Shown one piece after another: positions 8,190 through 58,796 of a stretch of 64,000 bases of DNA. The number at the start of each line of letters is the position of its first letter. Position 1 is the stretch's first letter. The notes under the pieces are model-generated. The model had not been told where the DNA came from and made no database searches. It worked only from the letters and a program-made list of their open reading frames with translations. Source of the DNA: Microbacterium aoyamense (lineage in GTDB: Bacteria > Actinomycetota > Actinomycetes > Actinomycetales > Microbacteriaceae); NCBI RefSeq assembly GCF_023155855.1, contig NZ_JAKNUT010000003.1, forward strand, positions 1 to 64,000, given 5' to 3'. The position numbers and the translations under genes are program-made.

Positions 8190-9211
8190 AGCGCTCAGTT
8201 CATGCGACGCTCATGCGCGGCGGATCCAGTCGCGGGCCGGTGGTCGAAGAGGCGGAACTGCCCGAGCCCGGTGCCGAGCGCGACCGGGTGCTCATCGACC
8301 TCATCGGTCGCGGTCGATCACAGCTCGACGGGGTCGGAGGCGGCACGCCGACGACGAGCAAGGTCGTCATCGTGCAGCCGGCTCGCGGAGACCCCGATGT
8401 CGACATCGCCTACTGCGTCGGCAACGTCGTGGTCGGAGCCGACACGATCGACTACGCCGGTACGTGCGGCAACATGACATCCGCCGTTCCGCTGTTCGCC
8501 CAGGAGCACGACTGGCCGTGCGCGCGGGGCGCCCGCGGGTACCGTCTGCGCAACACGTCCACCGGCCAGATCGTCGAGACGACTTTCCTCGGTGGTTCCT
8601 CGTCCCGCGACCGCGGGGCTTCCGCCCGGGTGCGGGCCGACTACCTGGATCCAGCCGGCAGTGTCTTCGAGGCGCTGCTGCCGACAGGGTCGCCCGCAGA
8701 CGACCTGATACTCGACGGACGCCCCGTGCGGGTGAGCATCGTGGATGCGACGCATCCCTACGTGTTCGTCCGCTACCGCGATGTCGTCGTCACCGAGGGG
8801 ATCGATTCCGAGGCCTCGGCGGCGATCGAGCGGCTCAGAGCCGCTGCGTGCGTGCGCCTCGGTGTCGTCGACGTCGCGCCGGATGCCTCGCGATCGTCAC
8901 CGGCCGTGCCGCGGATCGTGCTCCTGGAGGACGCAGCGCCACCGGGCGAGCTCCGGGTCCTGGCTGTCTCGATGGGGGCTGTGATCGGATCGGTGCCTGT
9001 CACCGCGGCGATGTGCGCGGCGGCTGCGGCGGAGGTCGCCGGGACTCTCGTGAACGAGGTCGTCGTCCACGGCGCCGACGGGTCCCTCACCGTCCGTGGG
9101 AAAACTTCCGATGTCATCGCGACCGCCACGTTCGCGGACGGCGCGCTCGTCTCCGTGGGAGTGGAGCGCACGGCGCGCACGATCGCCGACGCGCACATCT
9201 GGCTAGGCTGA
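8186..9211 (+). CDS. PrpF-family isomerase (AcnD-accessory / oxalomesaconate tautomerase type)
   Basis: This is a 341-residue PrpF-like protein. It shows the N-terminal LMRGGSSRG motif (residues 9-17), GGTPTTSKVVIV and the YAGTCGNMTSAVP segment. Each half of the family has a diaminopimelate-epimerase fold and moves a double bond in unsaturated di- or tricarboxylates: cis/trans-aconitate derivatives, 4-oxalomesaconate, methylitaconate. The pairing with a TcuA-like dehydrogenase and a PEP-mutase-type lyase makes a saturated-to-unsaturated acid, isomerisation, then cleavage sequence plausible. That order is inference. The start overlaps the upstream stop (ATGA), so the proteins are probably translationally coupled. 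Confidence 0.75.
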   Translation: MKRSVHATLMRGGSSRGPVVEEAELPEPGAERDRVLIDLIGRGRSQLDGVGGGTPTTSKVVIVQPARGDPDVDIAYCVGNVVVGADTIDYAGTCGNMTSAVPLFAQEHDWPCARGARGYRLRNTSTGQIVETTFLGGSSSRDRGASARVRADYLDPAGSVFEALLPTGSPADDLILDGRPVRVSIVDATHPYVFVRYRDVVVTEGIDSEASAAIERLRAAACVRLGVVDVAPDASRSSPAVPRIVLLEDAAPPGELRVLAVSMGAVIGSVPVTAAMCAAAAAEVAGTLVNEVVVHGADGSLTVRGKTSDVIATATFADGALVSVGVERTARTIADAHIWLG

Positions 9212-47803: not shown

Positions 47804-47824
47804 CGATACGTGTTCTACGGAGCG

Positions 47825-47838
47825 TTGTCACGTGATAA
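47825..47838. promoter_or_regulatory. LacI-type operator 2
   Basis: TTGTCACGTGATAA differs from a perfect palindrome at one pair. It shares CACGTGATAACG with operator 1. It lies about 40 bases before the symporter ATG, where repressor binding would block transcription. Confidence 0.6.
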
Positions 47839-47878
47839 CGCGATCACACAACATCTACACCTCAACGGAGAGTGCACA

Positions 47879-49318
47879 ATGTCCGACACCCGAACCGACT
47901 CTGCCGGCACCGTCGAGCCGGGCACCGTCGCCGCTGGCGCTGACCCGCAGACGGCCCTGCCGACCACCCGTAAGCTTCCGCCGTTCTTCTCGCTGCGGTT
48001 CTCGACCCGAGGTTTTGCGCTCGCCGTGAACGTGGTCGTGATGCTGCAGCTCACGTTCTACGCCACCGACATCATCGGCCTGGCGCCCGCACTGGTGGGT
48101 GGTCTGTTCCTCGCCGCGAAGATCTTCGACGGGATCACCGACCTCGTCGCCGGGTTCATCATCGACCGCACCAACACCCGCTGGGGCAAGGCTCGCCCGT
48201 ACGAGCTGTTCCTCATTCCGCTGTGGCTGTTGACGATCGCCATCTTCTCGACGCCCGAAATGAACACCTTCTGGCAGGCGACATACCTGTTCGTCCTGTA
48301 CGCGCTCATCAATTCCGTGTGCGCCACGTTCCTCAACGCGTCGGAGGCGGTCTACCTCAAGCGTTCGATCCGGGGTGATGTGCAGTACGCCAAGGTGTTG
48401 TCCCGTCAGGGCGTGTTCATCATCCTCGTCGCCGCGGTCGCGAGCATCATGCTCCCGCAGCTGATGGCGACGTGGGGCACCCAGCCCGGTGGATGGACTC
48501 TGATCGCCGCGGTCTACGGCATCCCGCTCATGCTCATCGGCCTCGTGCGGTTCTTCACGATCAAGGAACTGCCGGAGGACGAGACCGACCACGTGACCGA
48601 GGAGCGTCTCGGCTTCAAGGGCACGGTCAAGGCGGTGTTCGAGAACAAGTTCGTCTTCATCTTCTCGGCGATCGTGCTGCTCGCCAACATCGTCATCGGA
48701 GCGAACGCGATCGTCGGCGCCTACTTCTTCAAGTACATCCTCGGGGACCTCGGTCTGCTGTCCTTGGTGTCCCTCGGCGGCATCATCATCCCGCTGGTGT
48801 ACCTGCTGTTCCCGCTCGCGGTGCGCACGATCGGAGCAATGAACTTCGTTCGCATCGGACTGGGTCTCGCCACGGTCGGCTACCTGATGGTGCTTATCGC
48901 TCCGACCTCCCTGCCGATGGTCGTCATCGGACAGCTGCTCGGCTCATTCACGACCGTGGTCACCATGCTCGTCGGCTTCTTCATGATCCAGGCCATGACC
49001 TACGGCGAATGGAAGTCCGGCAAGCGGGTGGACGCGGTGACCAACTCGATCCAGGGCTTCGCCAGCAAGGTCGGCCAGGGGCTCGCGTCGGCGATCGTGG
49101 GAATCACCATGGGGGTCGTCGGCTACAACGGGCTGCTCGACGCACAGTCCTCCGAAGCCAGCGGTGCGATCGTCAGCCTGTACTCGCTGATGCCGTTGAT
49201 CGTCACGGTTGCGATGTTCGGCCTCAGCTACCTCTACAAGGTCGAGAAGCACCTGCCGGCCATCCAGGACGACCTCGCTGCGGGCGTCCACTCCGACACC
49301 AGCACGATCAAGATCTGA
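47879..49318 (+). CDS. Glycoside-pentoside-hexuronide (GPH) family cation symporter
   Basis: This 479-residue membrane protein of the GPH branch of MFS (MelB-like) has about 12 hydrophobic segments. Early family motifs are AKIFDGITDLVAGFIIDRTN then TRWGKARPYELF (the GKxRPW-type loop). It imports glycosides with a cation. It is the first gene of an operon with five carbohydrate-active or dehydrogenase genes, so its substrate is probably a beta-linked di- or oligosaccharide or an aryl glycoside. GGAGAG precedes the ATG at 47879. Confidence 0.85.
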   Translation: MSDTRTDSAGTVEPGTVAAGADPQTALPTTRKLPPFFSLRFSTRGFALAVNVVVMLQLTFYATDIIGLAPALVGGLFLAAKIFDGITDLVAGFIIDRTNTRWGKARPYELFLIPLWLLTIAIFSTPEMNTFWQATYLFVLYALINSVCATFLNASEAVYLKRSIRGDVQYAKVLSRQGVFIILVAAVASIMLPQLMATWGTQPGGWTLIAAVYGIPLMLIGLVRFFTIKELPEDETDHVTEERLGFKGTVKAVFENKFVFIFSAIVLLANIVIGANAIVGAYFFKYILGDLGLLSLVSLGGIIIPLVYLLFPLAVRTIGAMNFVRIGLGLATVGYLMVLIAPTSLPMVVIGQLLGSFTTVVTMLVGFFMIQAMTYGEWKSGKRVDAVTNSIQGFASKVGQGLASAIVGITMGVVGYNGLLDAQSSEASGAIVSLYSLMPLIVTVAMFGLSYLYKVEKHLPAIQDDLAAGVHSDTSTIKI

Positions 49319-49390: not shown

Positions 49391-50632
49391 ATGACCTCCT
49401 TCCCCGATGAATTCCTTTGGGGTGCCTCGACTGCGCCCCACCAGATCGAAGGCAACAACACCAACAGTGACTGGTGGGCCCGCGAAGGCATGATGCCCGG
49501 CATGGAGCTCAGTGGTGACGCCGTCGACAGCTACCACCGGTACTCCGAAGACATCGCCCTGCTCGCTCGAGCGGGCCTCAACACTTACCGCTTCGGGATC
49601 GAGTGGGCGAGGATCGAGCCGCGTCAGGGCAGTTTCTCGCGCGCAGAACTGGCCCACTATCGGCGCATGATCGACGCGTGCCTGGCCGCGGGGGTCACGC
49701 CGGTCGTCACCCTGAATCACTTCAGCGTTCCTGCGTGGTTCGCGCAGGATGGCGGTTGGGCTTCGCCCCAGGCGGTGGAGCGCTTCAGCGCCTACGTCGA
49801 GAAGGTGACGGAGATCCTCGACGGGGTGGAATGGGTCGTCACCATCAACGAGCCGAACATGCTCGCGATGATGACCATGGTGATGGAGGCCATGCGATCG
49901 GGCGCTGCCCCCGACTGGCAGAGCCCGACGGTCGAGGCAGACTCCGACCGGGATCGCATCGCCGCCGCTCTGCCGGTGCCCACCGTCAGTCACGCTGCAC
50001 CACTGATCGCCGCGCATCACGCCGCACGCGACATCCTCCGCGCGCGCACGTCGGCGAAGGTGGGGTGGTCGATCGCCAACGGCGCGTTCTATGCCGATCC
50101 GCAGGACGAGCAGAAGCTTGTCGAAGTTCGCTACGCCTACGAAGACGTCTACCTCGAGGCATCCCGCGGCGACGACTTCGTCGGCGTGCAGTCCTACTCA
50201 GCGCAGCGTGTCGATCAGAACGGGCTCGTGCCTCATCCCGATCATCCCGACAACACCATGGTGGGCACCGCGTATCGCCCCGACGCACTTGCGACCGCCG
50301 TCCGCCACGCCGCCGCCGTCTCAGGCGTGCCCGTGCTGGTGACCGAGAACGGCATCGCCACACCCGATGACACGCGGCGCGTCGCCTACACCGCAGAGGC
50401 CCTCCTGCACCTCGAAGAGGCCATGCGCGAAGGCGTGGACGTCCGCGGATACCTCCATTGGTCGCTGCTGGACAACTACGAGTGGGGTCACTGGGGGCCG
50501 ACTTTCGGTCTCATCGCCGTCGACCGCGAATCGTTCGTGCGCACACCGAAACCGAGCCTGGCCTGGCTGGGTGCGATCGCGCACAGCAACGGTGCCGAAC
50601 TTTCCACCACCGCTGAAGAGGCGCAGATCTGA
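49391..50632 (+). CDS. Glycoside hydrolase family 1 beta-glucosidase
   Basis: This 413-residue GH1 enzyme has an N-terminal FLWGASTAPHQIEG, the acid/base E154 in TINEPN and the nucleophile E319 in VTENGIA, then a GYLHWSLLDNYEW sugar-binding segment. Retaining beta-glycosidase with no signal peptide, so it acts on imported sugar in the cytoplasm. The size is slightly shorter than typical GH1 (about 450). Substrate is a beta-glucoside or beta-galactoside. Confidence 0.9.
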   Translation: MTSFPDEFLWGASTAPHQIEGNNTNSDWWAREGMMPGMELSGDAVDSYHRYSEDIALLARAGLNTYRFGIEWARIEPRQGSFSRAELAHYRRMIDACLAAGVTPVVTLNHFSVPAWFAQDGGWASPQAVERFSAYVEKVTEILDGVEWVVTINEPNMLAMMTMVMEAMRSGAAPDWQSPTVEADSDRDRIAAALPVPTVSHAAPLIAAHHAARDILRARTSAKVGWSIANGAFYADPQDEQKLVEVRYAYEDVYLEASRGDDFVGVQSYSAQRVDQNGLVPHPDHPDNTMVGTAYRPDALATAVRHAAAVSGVPVLVTENGIATPDDTRRVAYTAEALLHLEEAMREGVDVRGYLHWSLLDNYEWGHWGPTFGLIAVDRESFVRTPKPSLAWLGAIAHSNGAELSTTAEEAQI

Positions 50633-50635
50633 ACC

Positions 50636-53092
50636 ATGAGCACCACCCGATTCCACGATGGCTGGACTTTCACACGCACGCCGGAGGGTGACGCAGCTCC
50701 GGTCTTCCTCCCGCACGACGCGATGATCGGCGAAGAGCGGGCGGCGGATGCTGCGACCGAGGGTCACGGCGGCTTCTTCCCCGGCGGCACCTATCGGTAC
50801 ACCAAGACGTGGCACGTTCCAGCCGATGCCGCGACCACCCGATACTCGCTTCTGTTCGAGGGTGTGCAGGGAGACACCCGCGTCCTGCTCGACGGTCTCG
50901 AGGTCGCCGCCTGCCGAAACGGCTACCGGGAGTTCGCCGCACCCCTCACCGGCGCCCGACCGGACGCGGATGCCCTGATAGAGGTGCTGGTCGACAAGTC
51001 CGACGTGCCGACCGACCGCTGGTACAGCGGCGCCGGCATCTACCGACCGGTGTGGCTCGAGGCGGTCGGAGCGGCGCGGATCGCCCGCGACGGCCTCCGG
51101 ATCGTCACCGTCACAGCCGGCGAGGATGCCGAGGTCGACGTGTTCATAGACGTCGACGGCATCGATGACCGTGGTGCCGTGGCCACCCTGGAGCTCTCGC
51201 TCGACGGCGCGCTCGTCGTGGAGGCGGAGACGCCGATCCTCGCGACCGGACACGGAGAACTTCGTGTCACCGTGCCGGCTGCACGACTGTGGTCAGCTGA
51301 ATCCCCCACGCTTTACGACGTCAGGGTGGCGCTCGTGTCCGATGGTGTGACACGGGATGAGCGATCCTCGCGCATCGGCCTGCGTACGATCGCCATCGAC
51401 CCGCAACACGGCCTGCGCATCAACGGCCGCAGCGTGCTGCTGCGCGGGGCTGCGGTGCACCATGACAACGGCATCCTCGGCGCTGCCACCTACGCCGGTG
51501 CCGAGCACCGCCGCGCTCGCGCGCTGAAAGATGCCGGCTACAACGCGATCCGCAGCGCTCACAACCCGTTGTCGCGCCACTTCCTCGACGCCTGCGACGA
51601 ACTCGGACTCTACGTCATGGATGAGCTCACCGACGTGTGGTTCGCGCGCAAGACGGCCAGCGACGGTTCTGCCCGCTTCCGTGACGAGTGGCGCGAGGAT
51701 GCCGACTCGATGATCGCGAAGGACCGCAACCGGCCCTCGGTGATCATGTACTCGATCGGCAACGAGATCGCCGAAGCCGCCACCGCCGAAGGCGCAGCAC
51801 TGGCCCGCGACATCCACGCGTACGTTCACGACGCCGACCCGACCAGGCCCACGACCCTCGCTGTCAATCCTCTCCTGGCGATGATGTCGACGAAGGCGGC
51901 GGCAGCGAAGGCCAAGGCCGCAGCCAAGGGCGGTACCGACGGGAGCGGAGAGAGCGCACCGCCCGAGCGAAAAGAGGCGACGAGCACGGCGGCGAACATG
52001 ATCACCGCCAAGCTGGGTCGGCTGATGGTGGGCGCCTCACTGCTCCCCGCTGCAGACAAAGCCACGCGGGACGCCTTCGCGGCGGTCGACATCGCCGGAT
52101 ACAACTACGCGTACGCCAGCTACCCCGGCGCCCGCAGGCGCTACCCGGATCGGGTGATCGTCGGCACCGAGTCCATGCCCGGCGACCTCCCCGCGATCTG
52201 GAAGCGCGTCACGAAGGTTCCCGGTGTCATCGGCGACTTCAATTGGACCGGATGGGACTACCTGGGCGAAGTCGGCCTCGGCTACTGGAGCTACGGAGAC
52301 GAGGTCGGCGGCATCAGCAAGCCCTACCCAGGCATCCTCGCCGGCGCCGGCGTCTTCGACATCACCGGCAACCCAGGCGCTCTTCTGCACCTAGCCCAGG
52401 CCGTCTGGCAGATCACGGAATCGCCCGGCATCGCCGTGCGGCCGCTGGACAAGGTGGCACAGCGCGCGAACAAGACCCCCTGGTTGTCGACCGACGCAGT
52501 GTCGAGCTGGTCGTGGGGAGCATTGCGCGGTACGGCTGAGATCGAGGTCTACTCCCATGCCGATCACGTCGAGCTGCTGCTCAACGGACGCTCCCTGGGG
52601 CGTAAGCGCGCCGGAGCGGCGAAGTCCTTCGTCGCCCGGTTCCGCACGTCGTATGAGCCTGGTGAACTGACGGCTGTCGCCTACCGCGCCGGCGCCGAGA
52701 TCGGGCGGTCGACCTTGCGCAGCGCTTCGTCTGTGGCGCTTCACCTCCGTGCCGACGAGTCCGCTGGAGTGGACGAACTGACCTTCGTCCAGATCGAACT
52801 CGGCGACCCTGAGGGCACTGTCGACTCGGCGACGACCGACGTCATCACCGTGTCGATCGACGGGCCGGGCGAGCTGGCCGGGCTTGGAAGCGCCCGACCC
52901 GTCACCGACGAGAGCTACTCCAGCGCGACGCACACGACCTTCCGAGGGCGGGCGCTCGCCGCGATCCGCCGCACGGCCGACGTCGGTGAGATCGTGGTGA
53001 CCGCCCGCAGCACGCATCACGGCGACGCGACGGTCATCCTCTCGCCCGCAGCTCGTCCCAACCCATTGAATGCCGCGGGGATTCTGACGTGA
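50636..53092 (+). CDS. Glycoside hydrolase family 2 (beta-galactosidase-like)
   Basis: This 818-residue GH2 has an N-terminal sugar-binding jelly roll (GGTYRYTKTWHVP; DRWYSGAGIYRPVWLE), an immunoglobulin-like domain, then the TIM barrel with acid/base E377 in IGNEIAE and nucleophile E512 in VGTESMP, followed by C-terminal beta domains. About residues 420-450 are Ala/Lys/Gly/Ser-rich and look like a disordered insertion (AAAAKAKAAAKGGTDGSGES). It releases beta-linked galactosyl, glucuronosyl or mannosyl residues; the specificity cannot be read. It starts four bases after the GH1 gene and overlaps the GH3 start (GTGA). Confidence 0.85.
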   Translation: MSTTRFHDGWTFTRTPEGDAAPVFLPHDAMIGEERAADAATEGHGGFFPGGTYRYTKTWHVPADAATTRYSLLFEGVQGDTRVLLDGLEVAACRNGYREFAAPLTGARPDADALIEVLVDKSDVPTDRWYSGAGIYRPVWLEAVGAARIARDGLRIVTVTAGEDAEVDVFIDVDGIDDRGAVATLELSLDGALVVEAETPILATGHGELRVTVPAARLWSAESPTLYDVRVALVSDGVTRDERSSRIGLRTIAIDPQHGLRINGRSVLLRGAAVHHDNGILGAATYAGAEHRRARALKDAGYNAIRSAHNPLSRHFLDACDELGLYVMDELTDVWFARKTASDGSARFRDEWREDADSMIAKDRNRPSVIMYSIGNEIAEAATAEGAALARDIHAYVHDADPTRPTTLAVNPLLAMMSTKAAAAKAKAAAKGGTDGSGESAPPERKEATSTAANMITAKLGRLMVGASLLPAADKATRDAFAAVDIAGYNYAYASYPGARRRYPDRVIVGTESMPGDLPAIWKRVTKVPGVIGDFNWTGWDYLGEVGLGYWSYGDEVGGISKPYPGILAGAGVFDITGNPGALLHLAQAVWQITESPGIAVRPLDKVAQRANKTPWLSTDAVSSWSWGALRGTAEIEVYSHADHVELLLNGRSLGRKRAGAAKSFVARFRTSYEPGELTAVAYRAGAEIGRSTLRSASSVALHLRADESAGVDELTFVQIELGDPEGTVDSATTDVITVSIDGPGELAGLGSARPVTDESYSSATHTTFRGRALAAIRRTADVGEIVVTARSTHHGDATVILSPAARPNPLNAAGILT

Positions 53093-55311
53093 CGACGCTC
53101 GAAGAACAGGCAGCGCTCGGCAGCGGAGCGTCTTTCTGGAAGACGAAAGGCGCTCCCGGCCTCCCGGGTATCGTGCTCTCGGACGGCCCGCACGGCGTGC
53201 GTGCCCAAGACGCAGCGGTTGACCACGTCGGTATCGCCCCCAGTCAGCCCGCCACCTGCTTCCCGCCTGCAGCCGGACTCGCGCAGTCGTGGGACCCCGA
53301 CCTCGTCGCGCGCGTCGGTCGGGCACTGGCGGCGGAGGCGAGAGAGTACGGCGTCGGTGTACTGCTCGGCCCCGGGATCAACATCAAGCGCGACCCTCGT
53401 GCGGGGCGCAACTTCGAGTACTTCTCCGAAGACCCACATCTGACGGGGGTGCTCGGCGCTGCGTGGGTCACGGGTCTGCAGTCGGGAGGTGTCGGAGCCT
53501 CGGTGAAGCATTTCGCCGCGAACAACTCCGAGACCGACCGGATGCGGTCCGACTCGGTGGTCGACGAGCGCACGCTGCGCGAGATCTACCTGCGCGGTTT
53601 CGAGAAGGTCGTCCGCGAGGCGAAGCCGTGGACCGTGATGGCGGCGTACAACCGGGTGAACGGCGAGTACGCCTGCGAGAATCGTTGGTTGCTGACGGAT
53701 GTCCTGCGCAGTGAATGGGGCTTCGACGGGGTGGTCCTCAGCGACTGGGGTGCCGTCGACGATCGCGTCTCCTCGGTGGCAGCCGGCATGGATCTCGAGA
53801 TGCCCGGTGGCCACGCCGTATCCGATAGCGCGGTGGTCACGGCCGTCGAGGCAGGGGTCCTGGATGCCGCGGACGTTGCGAAGGCCGCTGCGAACGTGAC
53901 CCGCCTCCTCGAGCATTCGCGGGATGCCTCGGCAACCCGCGCTCCGGCCGTTGATTTCGACGCCCATCACGCACTCGCACGCGAGGCCGCCGCACGCAGC
54001 ACGGTGCTGCTCAAGAACGACGGCGGTCTCCTGCCCCTGGCCCCACACGGACGCATCGTCGTCATCGGCGAGTTCGCTCGAGCGCCCCGGTTCCAGGGCG
54101 GCGGCAGCTCGCACGTCAATGCGATCCGTGTCGATATCCCGTTCGACGAGATCCGGGAGCTCGCGCCCGCAGCCGAACTCACCTTCGCCGCAGGCTTCGG
54201 TGTGTCGGGCGACGCCGCCGCGCTGCGTGAGGAGGCTGTCATCGCGGCGCGCGCGTCGGACGCGGCGATCGTGTTCCTCGGCCTGGGCGAGCACGACGAG
54301 TCTGAAGGCTTCGACCGCGCCGACATCGAGATCCCGGGTGACCAGATCGAACTCCTCCGTGCCGTCGTCGCCGCTCAACCTCGCACTGTGGTCGTTCTCA
54401 GTCACGGTGGCGTGGTTCGCCTGGCTGAGATCGAGCGGTCGGCTCCCGCGATCGTGGACGGTGCCTTGGGCGGCCAGGCGTTCGGTGGAGGCGTCGCCGA
54501 CGTGCTCTTCGGTGTCGTGAATCCGTCGGGCCGTACCAGCGAGACCGTTCCGCAGCGTCTCGAAGACGTCCCGGCATTCCTGTCCTTCCCCGGGGGCGGG
54601 TCCGAGGTGCGCTACACCGAAGGAGTCTTCGTCGGCTACCGGTGGTACGACGCGCGCGATCTGAACGTCACATTCCCTTTCGGCCACGGACTGTCCTACA
54701 CATCCTTCGCCTACCGGGATCTCGCTGTCGACGTTGTCGACGGTGCCTTGCGTGTTGCGGTCACCGTCGACAACACCGGTGCTCGGGACGGACGCGAAGT
54801 CATCCAGGTATACGTCGGCAAGCAAGGATCCGGCATTCCCCGTGCACCTCGTGAGTTGAAGGCCTTCGCGCACATCGCGATCGCCGCCGGTGCATCCGAG
54901 ACAGTCGTCTTCGACATTCCGCGCGCCGACCTCGCCTACTGGGACGAGAGCGTCTCGGCATGGGTCGTTGAAGACGGTGACCACGACGTATCGGTCGGGG
55001 CATCGAGTCGCGACATCCGCGTCACAGGTGGTGCGGAGCTCGTCGGCGATGACATCCCTCGCCCGTTGACCGAGCGATCGACGCTCGGAGAGCTGATGCA
55101 GCATCCCGTCGCCGGCCCGATGATCGCCTCGATGGGGGCGCGCCAGACCAGCCACGGGGCGAGCAACGACGATGCGATGGGCAGTGATACGGCGAAGATG
55201 ATGGCGCAGATTCCCCTCAATCGCATGATCGCGTTCAGCGGCGGGCAGATCGGCCAGGAACAGATTGCCGGACTACTGGCGATGGCCGACGCCGACGGGA
55301 GCGGGCAGTGA
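53089..55311 (+). CDS. Glycoside hydrolase family 3 beta-glycosidase with C-terminal extra module
   Basis: This 740-residue GH3 has the nucleophile D219 in GVVLSDWGAVDDR, a KHFAANNSE region and the second domain (GLGEHDESEGFDR), then a fibronectin-III-like domain (YTSFAYRDLAVD). After about residue 660 it carries a 77-residue module starting STLGELMQHP and ending in a SGGQIG segment, similar to modules at the C-terminus of the next protein and the N-terminus of the SDR at 57789. GTG start overlaps the GH2 stop. No signal peptide, so it is intracellular. Confidence 0.85.
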   Translation: MTTLEEQAALGSGASFWKTKGAPGLPGIVLSDGPHGVRAQDAAVDHVGIAPSQPATCFPPAAGLAQSWDPDLVARVGRALAAEAREYGVGVLLGPGINIKRDPRAGRNFEYFSEDPHLTGVLGAAWVTGLQSGGVGASVKHFAANNSETDRMRSDSVVDERTLREIYLRGFEKVVREAKPWTVMAAYNRVNGEYACENRWLLTDVLRSEWGFDGVVLSDWGAVDDRVSSVAAGMDLEMPGGHAVSDSAVVTAVEAGVLDAADVAKAAANVTRLLEHSRDASATRAPAVDFDAHHALAREAAARSTVLLKNDGGLLPLAPHGRIVVIGEFARAPRFQGGGSSHVNAIRVDIPFDEIRELAPAAELTFAAGFGVSGDAAALREEAVIAARASDAAIVFLGLGEHDESEGFDRADIEIPGDQIELLRAVVAAQPRTVVVLSHGGVVRLAEIERSAPAIVDGALGGQAFGGGVADVLFGVVNPSGRTSETVPQRLEDVPAFLSFPGGGSEVRYTEGVFVGYRWYDARDLNVTFPFGHGLSYTSFAYRDLAVDVVDGALRVAVTVDNTGARDGREVIQVYVGKQGSGIPRAPRELKAFAHIAIAAGASETVVFDIPRADLAYWDESVSAWVVEDGDHDVSVGASSRDIRVTGGAELVGDDIPRPLTERSTLGELMQHPVAGPMIASMGARQTSHGASNDDAMGSDTAKMMAQIPLNRMIAFSGGQIGQEQIAGLLAMADADGSGQ

Positions 55312-57728
55312 CCGCCGAAGAGAACGAAGTGAGGAAGGATGCCGAGGCGGTCGATCGGGCAGCCGTCGTCGCCCGGCACAGAGTGATCCTGGATTGCGCG
55401 GACCCCGAGAACGTTGTGTCGCTGGGCAACGGTGACTTCGCCTTCAACGCCGACCTCACCGGCATGCAGACCTTCACCGCGTTCCACGACCCGGTCGTCG
55501 GCCAGCGTGAGGGCCGGACGGTCGTGAACACGGCGACGATGACGTCGTGGGGGTGGCACTCGATGCCCAATCCGTATGGCTACGCCCTCGCTGACGCGAT
55601 GACGACGTACGAGACGGCCCGCGGCCCGGTCAGCTACCCCGACAAGCACGACATGATGGGCGCGATGGCGGGACAGGTGAGCGAGGACTTCCTGCCCGGT
55701 GCGTGGCTGAACGCGAACCCGCAGCGTCTCGACCTCGGCCGGATCGGCCTCGAGTTGCGCAGCGATCCGGGAGCAGACTGCGAGACCGACCCGGACGTGC
55801 TGGCCGAGCCCCGGCAGGAGCTCGACCTGTGGACCGGTGTGCTCACGAGCGAGTTCACGTACGCGGGCGAGCGGGTGCGGGTCGAAACCGTCGGCGCCGC
55901 AGACGGTGCGGTCGTCGGGTTCCGCATCGGAACCGGTCTTCTCGAGACCGGAAGAGCGAAGGTCGTGATCCGCTTCCCGTACGCGAGCGATGCGTTCTTC
56001 GCCACGGACGACTGGTCTGCCGTCGACGCGCACCGCAGCGATCTGACCTCCGAGGCTGACGGGACGGGCCGCATCAGCAGGACCCTCGACGAGACCCGAT
56101 ACGTCACCGACATCTCCGTGACCGACGGCTCGGTCGTCAGCGGCGACTCCGCCCACCACTTCGTGCTCGAGACCTCGGCAGAGCAGATCGACGTCGTCGT
56201 CCGCTTCTCGACCACCGACGACGACGAGCCGATGCCGTCGTTCGACGAGGTTCGCACATCATCCGTCGAATCCTGGGAGGCGTTCTGGCTCAGCGGTGCG
56301 GCGATCGACCTCTCAGGCAGCACCGACCCGCGCGCGCCCGAACTCGAACGCCGCGTCGTCCTGTCGCAGTACCTCACTCGCGTTCACTCCGCAGGTCACC
56401 TGCCTCCGGCGGAGACGGGCCTGGTCACCAACTCGTGGCAGGGGAAGTTCCACCTCGAGATGCACCTCTGGCACGGCGCGCACTTCGCAGCGTGGGGGCG
56501 ACCGGATCTTCTCGAACGCAGCCTTGCGTGGTACCGCACGATCCTCGAACAGGCACGCGAGACGGCCGCCCGTCAGAATTACCCGGGCGCCAGATGGCCC
56601 AAGCAGACCGGCCCCGCAGGGGAGGAGTCGCCCAGTGACATCGGATCCCTGCTCGCCTGGCAACAGCCCCACATCCTCCACCTGCTCGAATCGGTGTGGA
56701 GCGCGTCGTCGGACTTCGACCGGCGGCGGCTGCTGGACGATTACGCAGAGATCGTATGCGAGACGGCGACCTTCATGGCAGCGTTCGCAGAGGAGCGTGC
56801 GGGCGCCTTCCATCTCGGCCCGCCGATCATGCCGGCGCAGGAGTTCTACGACCCCCGTGCGACGACGGACCCGACGTTCGAACTCGCCTACTGGTGGTGG
56901 GGGCTCGAGATCGCCCAGCGGTGGCGAGAACGTGCGGGCCTCGCGCGAGACGACCACTGGGCCCGTGTGCAGGATGGACTCGACGCACCGTACGTGGATG
57001 GAGGCCGCTATGCCGCGGTCGCGTCGAGGGAACCGCTCCGACGAGACGACCACCCATCTCTGCTGATGGCCCTGGGTGTCGTCCCAGACACCCCGCTCAT
57101 CGATCCTGAGATCATGCGCGCGACGTTGGCCGACGTCTGGGACTCGTGGGAATGGCCGACGGCGTGGGGGTGGGACTTCCCTGCAATGGCGATGACTGCC
57201 GCGCGTTTGGATGAGCCGTCACTCGCCCTCGACGCGCTCCTGCGACCCGAGAGCAAGAACCGGTTCACCGCGGTGGGCCACAATCCGCAGATGGGGAGCG
57301 TGCTCCCTCTCTACCTGCCGGCCAATGGTGGGCTCCTGCTCGCCGTCGCACTGCTGGCCGAAGCGGGCTGCTTCGATGCTTCTGGATGGCACGCGACGCA
57401 TGAGGGCTTCGTCCCCGCGACTCAAGGCGTCGGATTCGACGCACGTCGCACCCGCCGGGAACCGCCGCGTGAACCCGCCGCACCCGACGCGTCGCTCCCG
57501 CTATCGGCTGAGTCGACGATCGGCGAGTGGCTCGATCACCCCGTGGGGGGCGTGATCCTCGAAGGTCTCCTGTCGCGATCGGGCGCCACATCGTCGAGCC
57601 TGTCACCGTTGCGCGGCGCTCCCCTCACCCAACTGGTCGCGATGAGCGGCGGCGCCCTGAACGAATCGATGATCGACGGCTTGGTCGAGGCCGCCCATGC
57701 AGTCGCCGCGGCTGAACCTGCACTCTGA
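55308..57728 (+). CDS. Six-hairpin (alpha/alpha)6-barrel glycosidase-like protein with C-terminal extra module
   Basis: This 806-residue protein has an N-terminal beta-sandwich (GNGDFAFNADLTGMQTF) and a C-terminal (alpha/alpha)6 helical barrel (WQGKFHLEMHLWHGAHFAAW, NYPGARWPKQTGP), in the style of GH65/GH95-like enzymes. I cannot name the GH family. The catalytic glutamate is probably in the KFHLEMHLWH region, by analogy. The last 70 residues carry the shared module STIGEWLDHP...MSGGALNESMIDGLV. The GTG start overlaps the GH3 stop (GTGA). Confidence 0.65.
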   Translation: MTAEENEVRKDAEAVDRAAVVARHRVILDCADPENVVSLGNGDFAFNADLTGMQTFTAFHDPVVGQREGRTVVNTATMTSWGWHSMPNPYGYALADAMTTYETARGPVSYPDKHDMMGAMAGQVSEDFLPGAWLNANPQRLDLGRIGLELRSDPGADCETDPDVLAEPRQELDLWTGVLTSEFTYAGERVRVETVGAADGAVVGFRIGTGLLETGRAKVVIRFPYASDAFFATDDWSAVDAHRSDLTSEADGTGRISRTLDETRYVTDISVTDGSVVSGDSAHHFVLETSAEQIDVVVRFSTTDDDEPMPSFDEVRTSSVESWEAFWLSGAAIDLSGSTDPRAPELERRVVLSQYLTRVHSAGHLPPAETGLVTNSWQGKFHLEMHLWHGAHFAAWGRPDLLERSLAWYRTILEQARETAARQNYPGARWPKQTGPAGEESPSDIGSLLAWQQPHILHLLESVWSASSDFDRRRLLDDYAEIVCETATFMAAFAEERAGAFHLGPPIMPAQEFYDPRATTDPTFELAYWWWGLEIAQRWRERAGLARDDHWARVQDGLDAPYVDGGRYAAVASREPLRRDDHPSLLMALGVVPDTPLIDPEIMRATLADVWDSWEWPTAWGWDFPAMAMTAARLDEPSLALDALLRPESKNRFTAVGHNPQMGSVLPLYLPANGGLLLAVALLAEAGCFDASGWHATHEGFVPATQGVGFDARRTRREPPREPAAPDASLPLSAESTIGEWLDHPVGGVILEGLLSRSGATSSSLSPLRGAPLTQLVAMSGGALNESMIDGLVEAAHAVAAAEPAL

Positions 57729-57788
57729 GCGCGACCTCGCGATCGGCCACCGACCACTGCACCTATCCGAGCTCAAAGAAGGACGAGT

Positions 57789-58796
57789 ATGACTGACCAG
57801 ATCACCCCCATCGACGCAGAGAGCACGATCGGAGAATGGATGCGGCATCCGGCCGGTGTCCGGATCATCGCCGGCATGGCCGCTCAAGGGGGAATCTCCG
57901 ACAGTGCGCTCCGGCTTGCACGCAACGTACCGCTGAGCCGATTCCTGAGCGCGGGCGGCCCCTTGCCTGATGGGATGATCGACCACCTTGTCTCCCAGGC
58001 CAACGGAGGAGAGGCGCCGGACGATGTCGCCCACACGTCCTGGACCGAAGTCGTCACCCGCGGTCGATTCGACGGACAGACTGTCATCGTCACCGGCGCC
58101 GCATCCGGCATCGGACGCGCGGTCGCGTCGCGCATCGCACGCGAGGGCGGTCGCGTCGTCGCGGTCGATCTGTCCGAGGACCGTCTGGCTGAGTTCGCCG
58201 CCAGTATCCCCGAGGCCGAGATCGTCCCCGTCGCCGGCGACATCACCTCGGACGAGAGCATCCGTCGAATCGTCGATGCGGCAGGAGCACGCATCGATGG
58301 GCTGGCGAATGTCGCCGGACTTCTCGATGACTTCAGCCCCATCCACGAGGTGTCCGACGAAACCCTCGAGCGGGTCTTCAACGTCAACGTCTTCGGCCTC
58401 ATCAAACTCACTCGCGCCGTAGTCCCGTTCATGATCGATCAGAAGCAGGGATCCATCGTGAACATCGCGTCCGAAGCGGCGCTGCGTGGCTCGTCCGCGG
58501 GACTCGCGTACACCGCGTCGAAGAACGCCGTCGTGGGCATCACCAAGAACACCGCGTACATGTACGAGCGGTACAACATCCGCATCAACGCTGTCGCCCC
58601 CGGAGGCACCCTCACGGGGATGCGCCCCGGCGCAGTGAGCGCGTTCGGTCAGGCACGCCTCGATGAGCACATCGCCGACGCCCCGCTCGCATTGCCGGAA
58701 GCCCTTGCCGCGTCGATCACCTTCCTGCTCAGCCGGGACGGGATCAACATCAACGGCGCCGTGCTGCCCAGTGACGGAGGTGAGTCCGTCTACTGA
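57789..58796 (+). CDS. SDR with N-terminal extra module
   Basis: This 335-residue protein is an SDR (TGAASGIGRAVASR at about residue 96, NVAGLLD, YTASKN, C-terminal SDGGES) preceded by about 65 residues that resemble the C-terminal modules of the two upstream glycosidases (STIGEWMRHPAG at residue 12, PLSRFL, GGPLPDGMIDHLV). An N-terminal 70-90 residue addition is unusual for an SDR. It may oxidise the sugar or aglycone released upstream. It follows the six-hairpin glycosidase by 60 bases with GAAGGACGAGT before the ATG. Confidence 0.75.
   Translation: MTDQITPIDAESTIGEWMRHPAGVRIIAGMAAQGGISDSALRLARNVPLSRFLSAGGPLPDGMIDHLVSQANGGEAPDDVAHTSWTEVVTRGRFDGQTVIVTGAASGIGRAVASRIAREGGRVVAVDLSEDRLAEFAASIPEAEIVPVAGDITSDESIRRIVDAAGARIDGLANVAGLLDDFSPIHEVSDETLERVFNVNVFGLIKLTRAVVPFMIDQKQGSIVNIASEAALRGSSAGLAYTASKNAVVGITKNTAYMYERYNIRINAVAPGGTLTGMRPGAVSAFGQARLDEHIADAPLALPEALAASITFLLSRDGININGAVLPSDGGESVY

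Follow-up and report, generated by a model that had tools for sequence, protein, structure and literature searches.

The C-terminus of the GH3 enzyme, the C-terminus of the six-hairpin glycosidase and the N-terminus of the SDR dehydrogenase that are encoded side by side in the window, that is, the whole stretch of 64,000 nucleotides of Microbacterium aoyamense DNA analysed here, are, judged from their sequences, copies of one homologous mobile module. With a probability of roughly 0.4, we consider that it may be a tethered protein–protein association module, mainly self-assembling, through which its carriers co-assemble. The genes are ordered as MFS transporter, GH1, GH2, GH3 with module, six-hairpin glycosidase with module and SDR with module, and the features are as follows (window coordinates).

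47810..49318, + strand: MFS sugar transporter (PF13347), member of the sugar gene run, no module found
49391..50632, + strand: GH1 (PF00232), member of the sugar gene run, no module found, module present in a relative from genome G063
50636..53092, + strand: GH2 (PF02836, PF18565), member of the sugar gene run, no module found
53089..55311, + strand: GH3, module carrier (PF00933, PF01915, PF14310)
55308..57728, + strand: six-hairpin glycosidase, module carrier (weak PF03632 match under the cut-off; linker at residues ~704–735)
57789..58796, + strand: SDR dehydrogenase, module carrier (PF00106, 1e-52)
55078..55308, + strand: GH3-type helical module at the GH3 C-terminus (P0001), from translation, BLASTP, own-genome profile and HMM score
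57513..57725, + strand: SDR-type helical module at the C-terminus of the six-hairpin glycosidase (P0002), from BLASTP, HMM and tree, absent from four homologues
57822..58010, + strand: SDR-type helical module at the SDR N-terminus (P0003), from BLASTP and tree

The genes are tightly packed: GH3 begins at 53089, before the end of GH2 at 53092, the six-hairpin gene begins at 55308, before the end of GH3 at 55311, and a gap of 60 bases separates the six-hairpin gene from the SDR gene, the ATG of which is preceded by AAGAAGGA. The name six-hairpin is a label from the first reading of the sequence, and Pfam shows just a weak GH65-type match (PF03632) under the cut-off and no curated match. Visual inspection of the three carriers showed no evident signal peptide, and they are thus probably located in the cytoplasm.

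An earlier note on this DNA had described a shared pattern at the three module positions listed above, and the translations agree with it. The pairs are homologous both by BLASTP (E 5e-9, 4e-15 and 2e-7; 30–42% identity over 62–71 columns) and by Smith–Waterman scores of 93, 124 and 78, where 2000 shuffles per pair reached at most 53, 52 and 57 (z 10.6–18.7). The profile–profile comparison, set beforehand as the refuting test, found the similarity: when 74 GH3 modules from other genomes were made into one profile and 56 SDR modules, with the window SDR included and the six-hairpin enzyme excluded, into another, the two aligned over 66 columns with 98.8% probability and a score of 77.4, and the best of 20 column-shuffled controls scored 12.3. 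The consensus over 201 module rows, which include repeats of one place from overlapping loci, is approximately nStiGewlahP.ggp.l...la...mPL.rlv.fsgG....e.ld.Lv..aN. The search for a named domain, suggested in the same note, returned none, as no domain in Pfam, NCBIfam or PHROGs spans the module itself in the three segments. Likewise, 37 diverse modules gave no consistent match to the domain libraries, NF041610, a full-length GH3 model, alone being matched, in 5 of the 37. The window GH3 scored 806.5 bits against this model (exo-alpha-(1->6)-L-arabinopyranosidase), under its curated cut-off of 1300. No treatment of the module as a shared domain was found in the literature searched.

The module alone was predicted to form five helices with a mean pLDDT of 87.7 and a pTM of 0.74, in a model built on 46 rows from the window and the loci of the clostridial GH3 query only, in line with the proposal of a small, probably helical module on three unrelated folds, and it is predicted to fold on its own. 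In the full-length model of the window GH3 (pLDDT 90.0), ten-residue blocks within the module ranged from 49 to 85. The closest solved folds are GH3 chain ends, namely 9lql (Z 8.1), 7ms2 (8.0) and 8j9f (7.3), with 9lql_A and 7ms2_B aligned over 68 residues each, though Z values of 5–8 are within the chance range for helical bundles, and the match to the GH3 ends thus relies on sequence too. Foldseek returned no match at E 0.001, the best E being 0.25.

The next folds, aligned over 61–70 residues with Z values in the same chance range, were 2k5e (Z 6.0), the N-terminus of YtfE (5.4) and 2k53 (5.2), with 2k5e and 2k53 at E 1.6 and 3.7 in Foldseek. We take 2k5e and 2k53 to be DUF1858 and the YtfE part to be ScdA_N. 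The similar helical arrangement in these models is a lead, and DUF1858 likewise occurs both in frames of 65–130 aa and in longer ones. It is consistent with the module being an appendage for stability or folding, or a ligand sensor of DUF1858-like origin, that binds no partner. However, 185 of the 201 module rows contain no cysteine, a CxxC being present in 17 of 18 DUF1858 members, the DUF1858 profile matches 23 columns of one helix only, and close relatives of the GH1 and six-hairpin enzymes lack the module, and this explanation is in our view very unlikely. Membership of DUF1858 itself (PF08984), suspected from the motif, was rejected on sequence, since none of the 37 modules matched it at E <= 1 and a search of the own genome gave no match at E <= 0.01.

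In one GH3 clade the module is an almost constant C-terminal feature. It was found at the GH3 C-terminus in 77 of the 80 loci obtained with the clostridial GH3 query, with E below 1e-6 in 74 cases; of the remaining three, L146 runs into a contig end, L135 has a GH3 frame that stops after 453 residues, and L182 has no GH3 frame. The record titles place these loci in Bacillota, Spirochaetota, Chloroflexota, Pseudomonadota and Microbacterium. The clade includes 7ms2 from C. thermocellum, 8j9f and 9lql (PSTG1) and 5wab from B. adolescentis, which have a homologous module in the same place as the window GH3, and the solved structures 7ms2, 8j9f and 9lql include it, at about residues 674–753; no structure papers on these four entries were found in the literature searched. 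A module profile (A3) matched 5wab at 2.5e-7 and 7ms2 at 9.5e-7, and 8j9f at just 0.49. The model of the window GH3 (residues 1–735) superposed on 7ms2_B over 727 residues with an rmsd of 2.1, and the module is ordered in 7ms2_B at the position predicted for the window GH3. In 5wab, the module is partly disordered, the alignment stopping at residue 692 in 5wab_A and at 722 in 5wab_D. A Paenibacillus GH3, PSTG, is described in passages of its report as a 310 kDa tetramer (PMC3622683). From the entry titles, PSTG appears to be the protein in 8j9f and 9lql, and its tetramer need not rely on the module. In this clade the module ends one enzyme family, whereas in the window the SDR and the six-hairpin enzyme carry one too.

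On the evidence of similarity searches, the module is widespread and mobile, being located at either terminus of unrelated bacterial enzymes of glycoside and glycan breakdown. A profile search of the own genome recovered the three window copies (by construction) and six further places, of which three have E values between 1e-12 and 2e-7 and three are weak (0.02 to 0.05). Additional carriers in this genome are three GH3 enzymes, a second SDR, a sulfatase, a stand-alone ORF of 78 aa and a decayed copy. This own-genome profile matched 66 of 150 genomes of the window's family and 12 of 296 genomes in a phylum sample, four of the 12 being the own genome and its family. In the families of other hosts, 32 of 150 genomes (Fusicatenibacter) and 35 of 104 (Paenibacillus phytorum) were positive. 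The 108 distinct module frames drawn from loci L001–L122, with contained frames removed, consist of 56 SDR, 43 GH3, 1 six-hairpin and 8 other frames. Other carriers are GH2 enzymes that resemble FMN-type GUS (seen at 10 loci), two BD-FAE-type esterases, a GH78 rhamnosidase and a GH1. The module is N-terminal in Paenibacillus SDRs and in apiosidase-like hydrolases (11 loci seen, 6 Pfam-scanned), and C-terminal in sulfatases (3 Pfam-scanned). Stand-alone module ORFs of ~75 aa are present in the own genome and at L051, L293, L386 and L387. Carriers outside the Pfam scans were assigned from similarity or visual inspection, and one further match list, of which 14 loci were read, is among the sources of the apiosidase-like and stand-alone carriers. 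No protein with two modules was found in three frame sets.

The C-terminal domain of the FMN-binding gut GUS enzymes (GH2; 7kgz, 6mvg) includes the module, the GUS-like and GH3-only profiles aligning at 98.4% over 78 columns. The A3 profile matched 7kgz at 0.0015 and 6mvg at 0.0061, and the GH2 carrier L302 matches Rh3 GUS 7kgz over nearly its whole length with 1068 bits. The module shows no tie to FMN in the present analysis. According to passages of PMC8748916, Rh3 GUS is a dimer in the crystal, its C-terminal domain is critical for the processing of triclosan-glucuronide, and the C-terminal domain of FMN-type GUS, of ~150 residues, is unresolved in crystals; models described in a part of PMC9377255 place this domain beside the active site. 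Together with the relatedness of Rh3 GUS to L302 and the ordered module of 7ms2_B, these reports suggest that the module could be an active-site lid, which covers the active-site mouth of its own or a partner subunit, selects a bulky aglycone or glycan and acts likewise on the other carriers. However, such a lid must fit unrelated folds from either terminus, the carriers comprising, by Pfam, the GH1, GH2, GH3 and apiosidase-like barrels, GH78, sulfatase, alpha/beta-hydrolase and SDR, and a single active-site geometry would hardly serve every one of them. Furthermore, the GUS domain exceeds the module alone, stand-alone copies exist, and the module of the six-hairpin enzyme is SDR-type. We consider a lid function rather unlikely.

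At least three sub-types of the module are distinguished, namely a GH3/GUS-like type, an actinobacterial SDR type and a short type. In a tree of 68 modules (68 chosen rows, 81 columns), the 12 carrier labels need 15 changes, compared to a shuffled mean of 47.3. Actinobacterial modules, those of SDR and of GH3 enzymes, form one supported group (98/91), with the split within it less sure (87/78 and 88/82), and a second group (97/93) consists of the stand-alone, GH78, sulfatase and Paenibacillus SDR modules, with those of GH1 and the apiosidase-like enzymes nearby. The SDR domains of the two module groups are 34–37% identical. Since SDR modules are divided between two separate groups in the tree, the SDR fold seems to have received the module at least twice.

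The module of the window GH3 is of its own clade's type, which differs from the one shared by the six-hairpin enzyme and the window SDR. That of the six-hairpin enzyme scored 89.0 bits against an SDR-module HMM from which the window SDR had been left out, compared to 49.4 bits against the GH3-module HMM, and it groups among SDR modules in the tree; the window SDR module is of the same type. Four homologues of the six-hairpin enzyme in 150 family genomes (own included) end at about the start of the window enzyme's linker, and no module was found near them, suggesting that the window enzyme alone among the five homologues gained the module. The placement among other SDR modules points to an SDR-type donor, not evidently the window SDR. 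Plain copying of the window SDR's module into the six-hairpin gene was rejected, as that module pairs instead with the one of its relative in genome G045. One of the six-hairpin homologues (G102) adjoins homologues of GH1 and GH2, without an SDR. The G045 SDR, the closest relative of the window SDR, stands beside an MFS gene, a GH1, a GH78 and a GH3 that yielded no module, and the G063 GH1 carries the module and is 58% identical to the window GH1, which lacks it. The comparisons of the six-hairpin, G045 and G063 genes thus indicate that the module is gained by, or missing from, individual enzymes in gene runs that are otherwise alike. Among 100 family genomes, SDR matches with at least 55% identity to the window SDR domain bear the module, as far as fetched, and more distant matches are mostly short frames of ~250–290 aa.

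The 66 positive family genomes comprise 24 with both SDR and GH3 carriers, 29 with SDR only, 11 with GH3 only and 2 with others, five matches (G123, G068, G110, G045 and G040) having been called GH3 by frame length. SDR and GH3 carriers co-occur beyond expectation by a Fisher test that ignores relatedness and genome size (p 5e-6), and the genomes with only one of the two indicate that neither carrier needs the other's module. Carriers within 20 kb of each other were found in the window's own genome only among these 66. There, a sulfatase carrier also lies upstream of one GH3 carrier, both genes being on one strand and 1498 bases apart. In a further genome, G546, esterase and GH3 carriers are ~6.5 kb apart. 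Within up to 10 kb on either side of the 80 GH3 loci, every carrier detected by the general profile was a GH3, and the short-type profile added a GH2 in L125 and a GH2-looking frame in L135, both upstream of GH3 and weak (i-E 0.0015 and 0.0016). The neighbouring carriers elsewhere (sulfatase/GH3, GH2/GH3 and esterase/GH3) support a link between carriers. The sulfatase/GH3 and GH2/GH3 neighbours have modules of differing sub-types, which does not support like-with-like pairing of sub-types as a general rule, and a fixed GH3–SDR complex across the family is not supported either, as in 29 of the 66 genomes an SDR carrier was found without a GH3 carrier.

We favour an association module, given that the carriers are so varied, that the module changes terminus and also occurs in stand-alone copies, and that a glycosidase encoded beside an SDR gained an SDR-type module. 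Its confident model in isolation, its partial disorder in 5wab and the PSTG tetramer point the same way, and we propose the following scenario. The module, on a flexible tether, may self-associate and raise the oligomeric state of its carrier, and it may let different carriers co-assemble. The six-hairpin glycosidase, having acquired an SDR-type module, could then join the SDR encoded next door. Counting against association are the 29 SDR-only genomes among the 66, the finding that none of these genomes except the window's own has carriers close together, the differing sub-types in neighbours, the Rh3 GUS dimer, whose substrate-critical domain fits a lid, and the lack of a two-module protein. 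The docking or assembly domain of the earlier note is thus partly borne out: a homologous, probably autonomous module on many kinds of enzyme and in stand-alone form stands, and the joining of these three enzymes is so far unsupported, since the GH3 module is constant in its clade (77 of 80) and of another sub-type, and SDR carriers occur without GH3 carriers. Docking is a plausible hypothesis, above all between the SDR and the six-hairpin enzyme.

Dockerins and polyketide docking domains are small appended modules that recur on many enzymes of one process. The present module resembles them as a small add-on across enzymes, a relation examined by Pfam scans alone. Unlike for dockerins, the window carriers look cytoplasmic by eye, and no receptor module is known. 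The recurrence on many enzymes at either end is likewise consistent with a docking tag for a shared third partner, such as a scaffold, a membrane protein (e.g., a transporter) or a polar site, and the stand-alone copies could then be competitors or adaptors. However, no receptor gene was seen, and the sub-types vary by carrier. Bacterial microcompartment cargo was rejected, as PF00936 shell genes are absent from the own genome at E <= 0.01, in a search in which 2 of 14 control genomes were positive. Such a tag is improbable in our estimate.

If the module is for association, as we favour, a broader and distinctly speculative extension is an intracellular assembly code, in which self-associating helical modules of one family pass between enzymes, sub-types set the pairing and metabolons form without a scaffold. 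Glycosidases, sulfatases and esterases would then gather with a product-acting dehydrogenase by a dockerin-like, scaffold-free principle. Gut beta-glucuronidases reactivate drugs, and their relatives are among the carriers of this module, which has no entry of its own in the three libraries. Once named, the module would link the C-terminal domains of FMN-type GUS, which are unresolved in crystals, with the ordered chain end of the GH3 clade, for which crystal structures are available, and it opens scaffold-free assembly of glycoside-breakdown enzymes to direct testing. In addition, two loci, L100 and L105, have an SDR-type module and no SDR domain in the frame, and are either stand-alone or broken.

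The short-type module was found C-terminally on a sulfatase (PF00884) in the window's own genome, and a module-bearing GH3 lies downstream of this gene on the same strand, with 1498 bases between them; this is a second gene run of the genome holding two carriers. It is listed below with other loci that have the module, on further enzymes or outside an enzyme gene.

L015:2303-4117 (C12, about 387302-389116), own genome: sulfatase, C-terminal short-type module
L008:1495-1731 (C1:431972-432163), minus strand, own genome: stand-alone 78-aa module ORF
L011, about 8380-8660 (C12, about 204380), minus strand, own genome: module remnant split across two frames
L120:1328-2794: GH1, C-terminal module
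L125:5627-7933, Paenibacillus: GH2, short-type module, upstream of GH3
L135:2034-3011, Paenibacillus: GH2-like frame, short-type module, upstream of GH3

Next to the stand-alone ORF lie genes that, judged by eye, encode gluconokinase-like and IclR-like proteins and a sugar ABC transporter. The split remnant is apparently a decayed copy.

The GH1 of L120 and that of the window share 58% identity; no module was found on the window enzyme. Profile comparison also placed the module within the C-terminal domains of the beta-glucuronidases PDB 7kgz and 6mvg. Two Anaerolineales records (L142 and L148) each hold a tandem pair of GH3 genes, both module-bearing, the modules being identical between the records.
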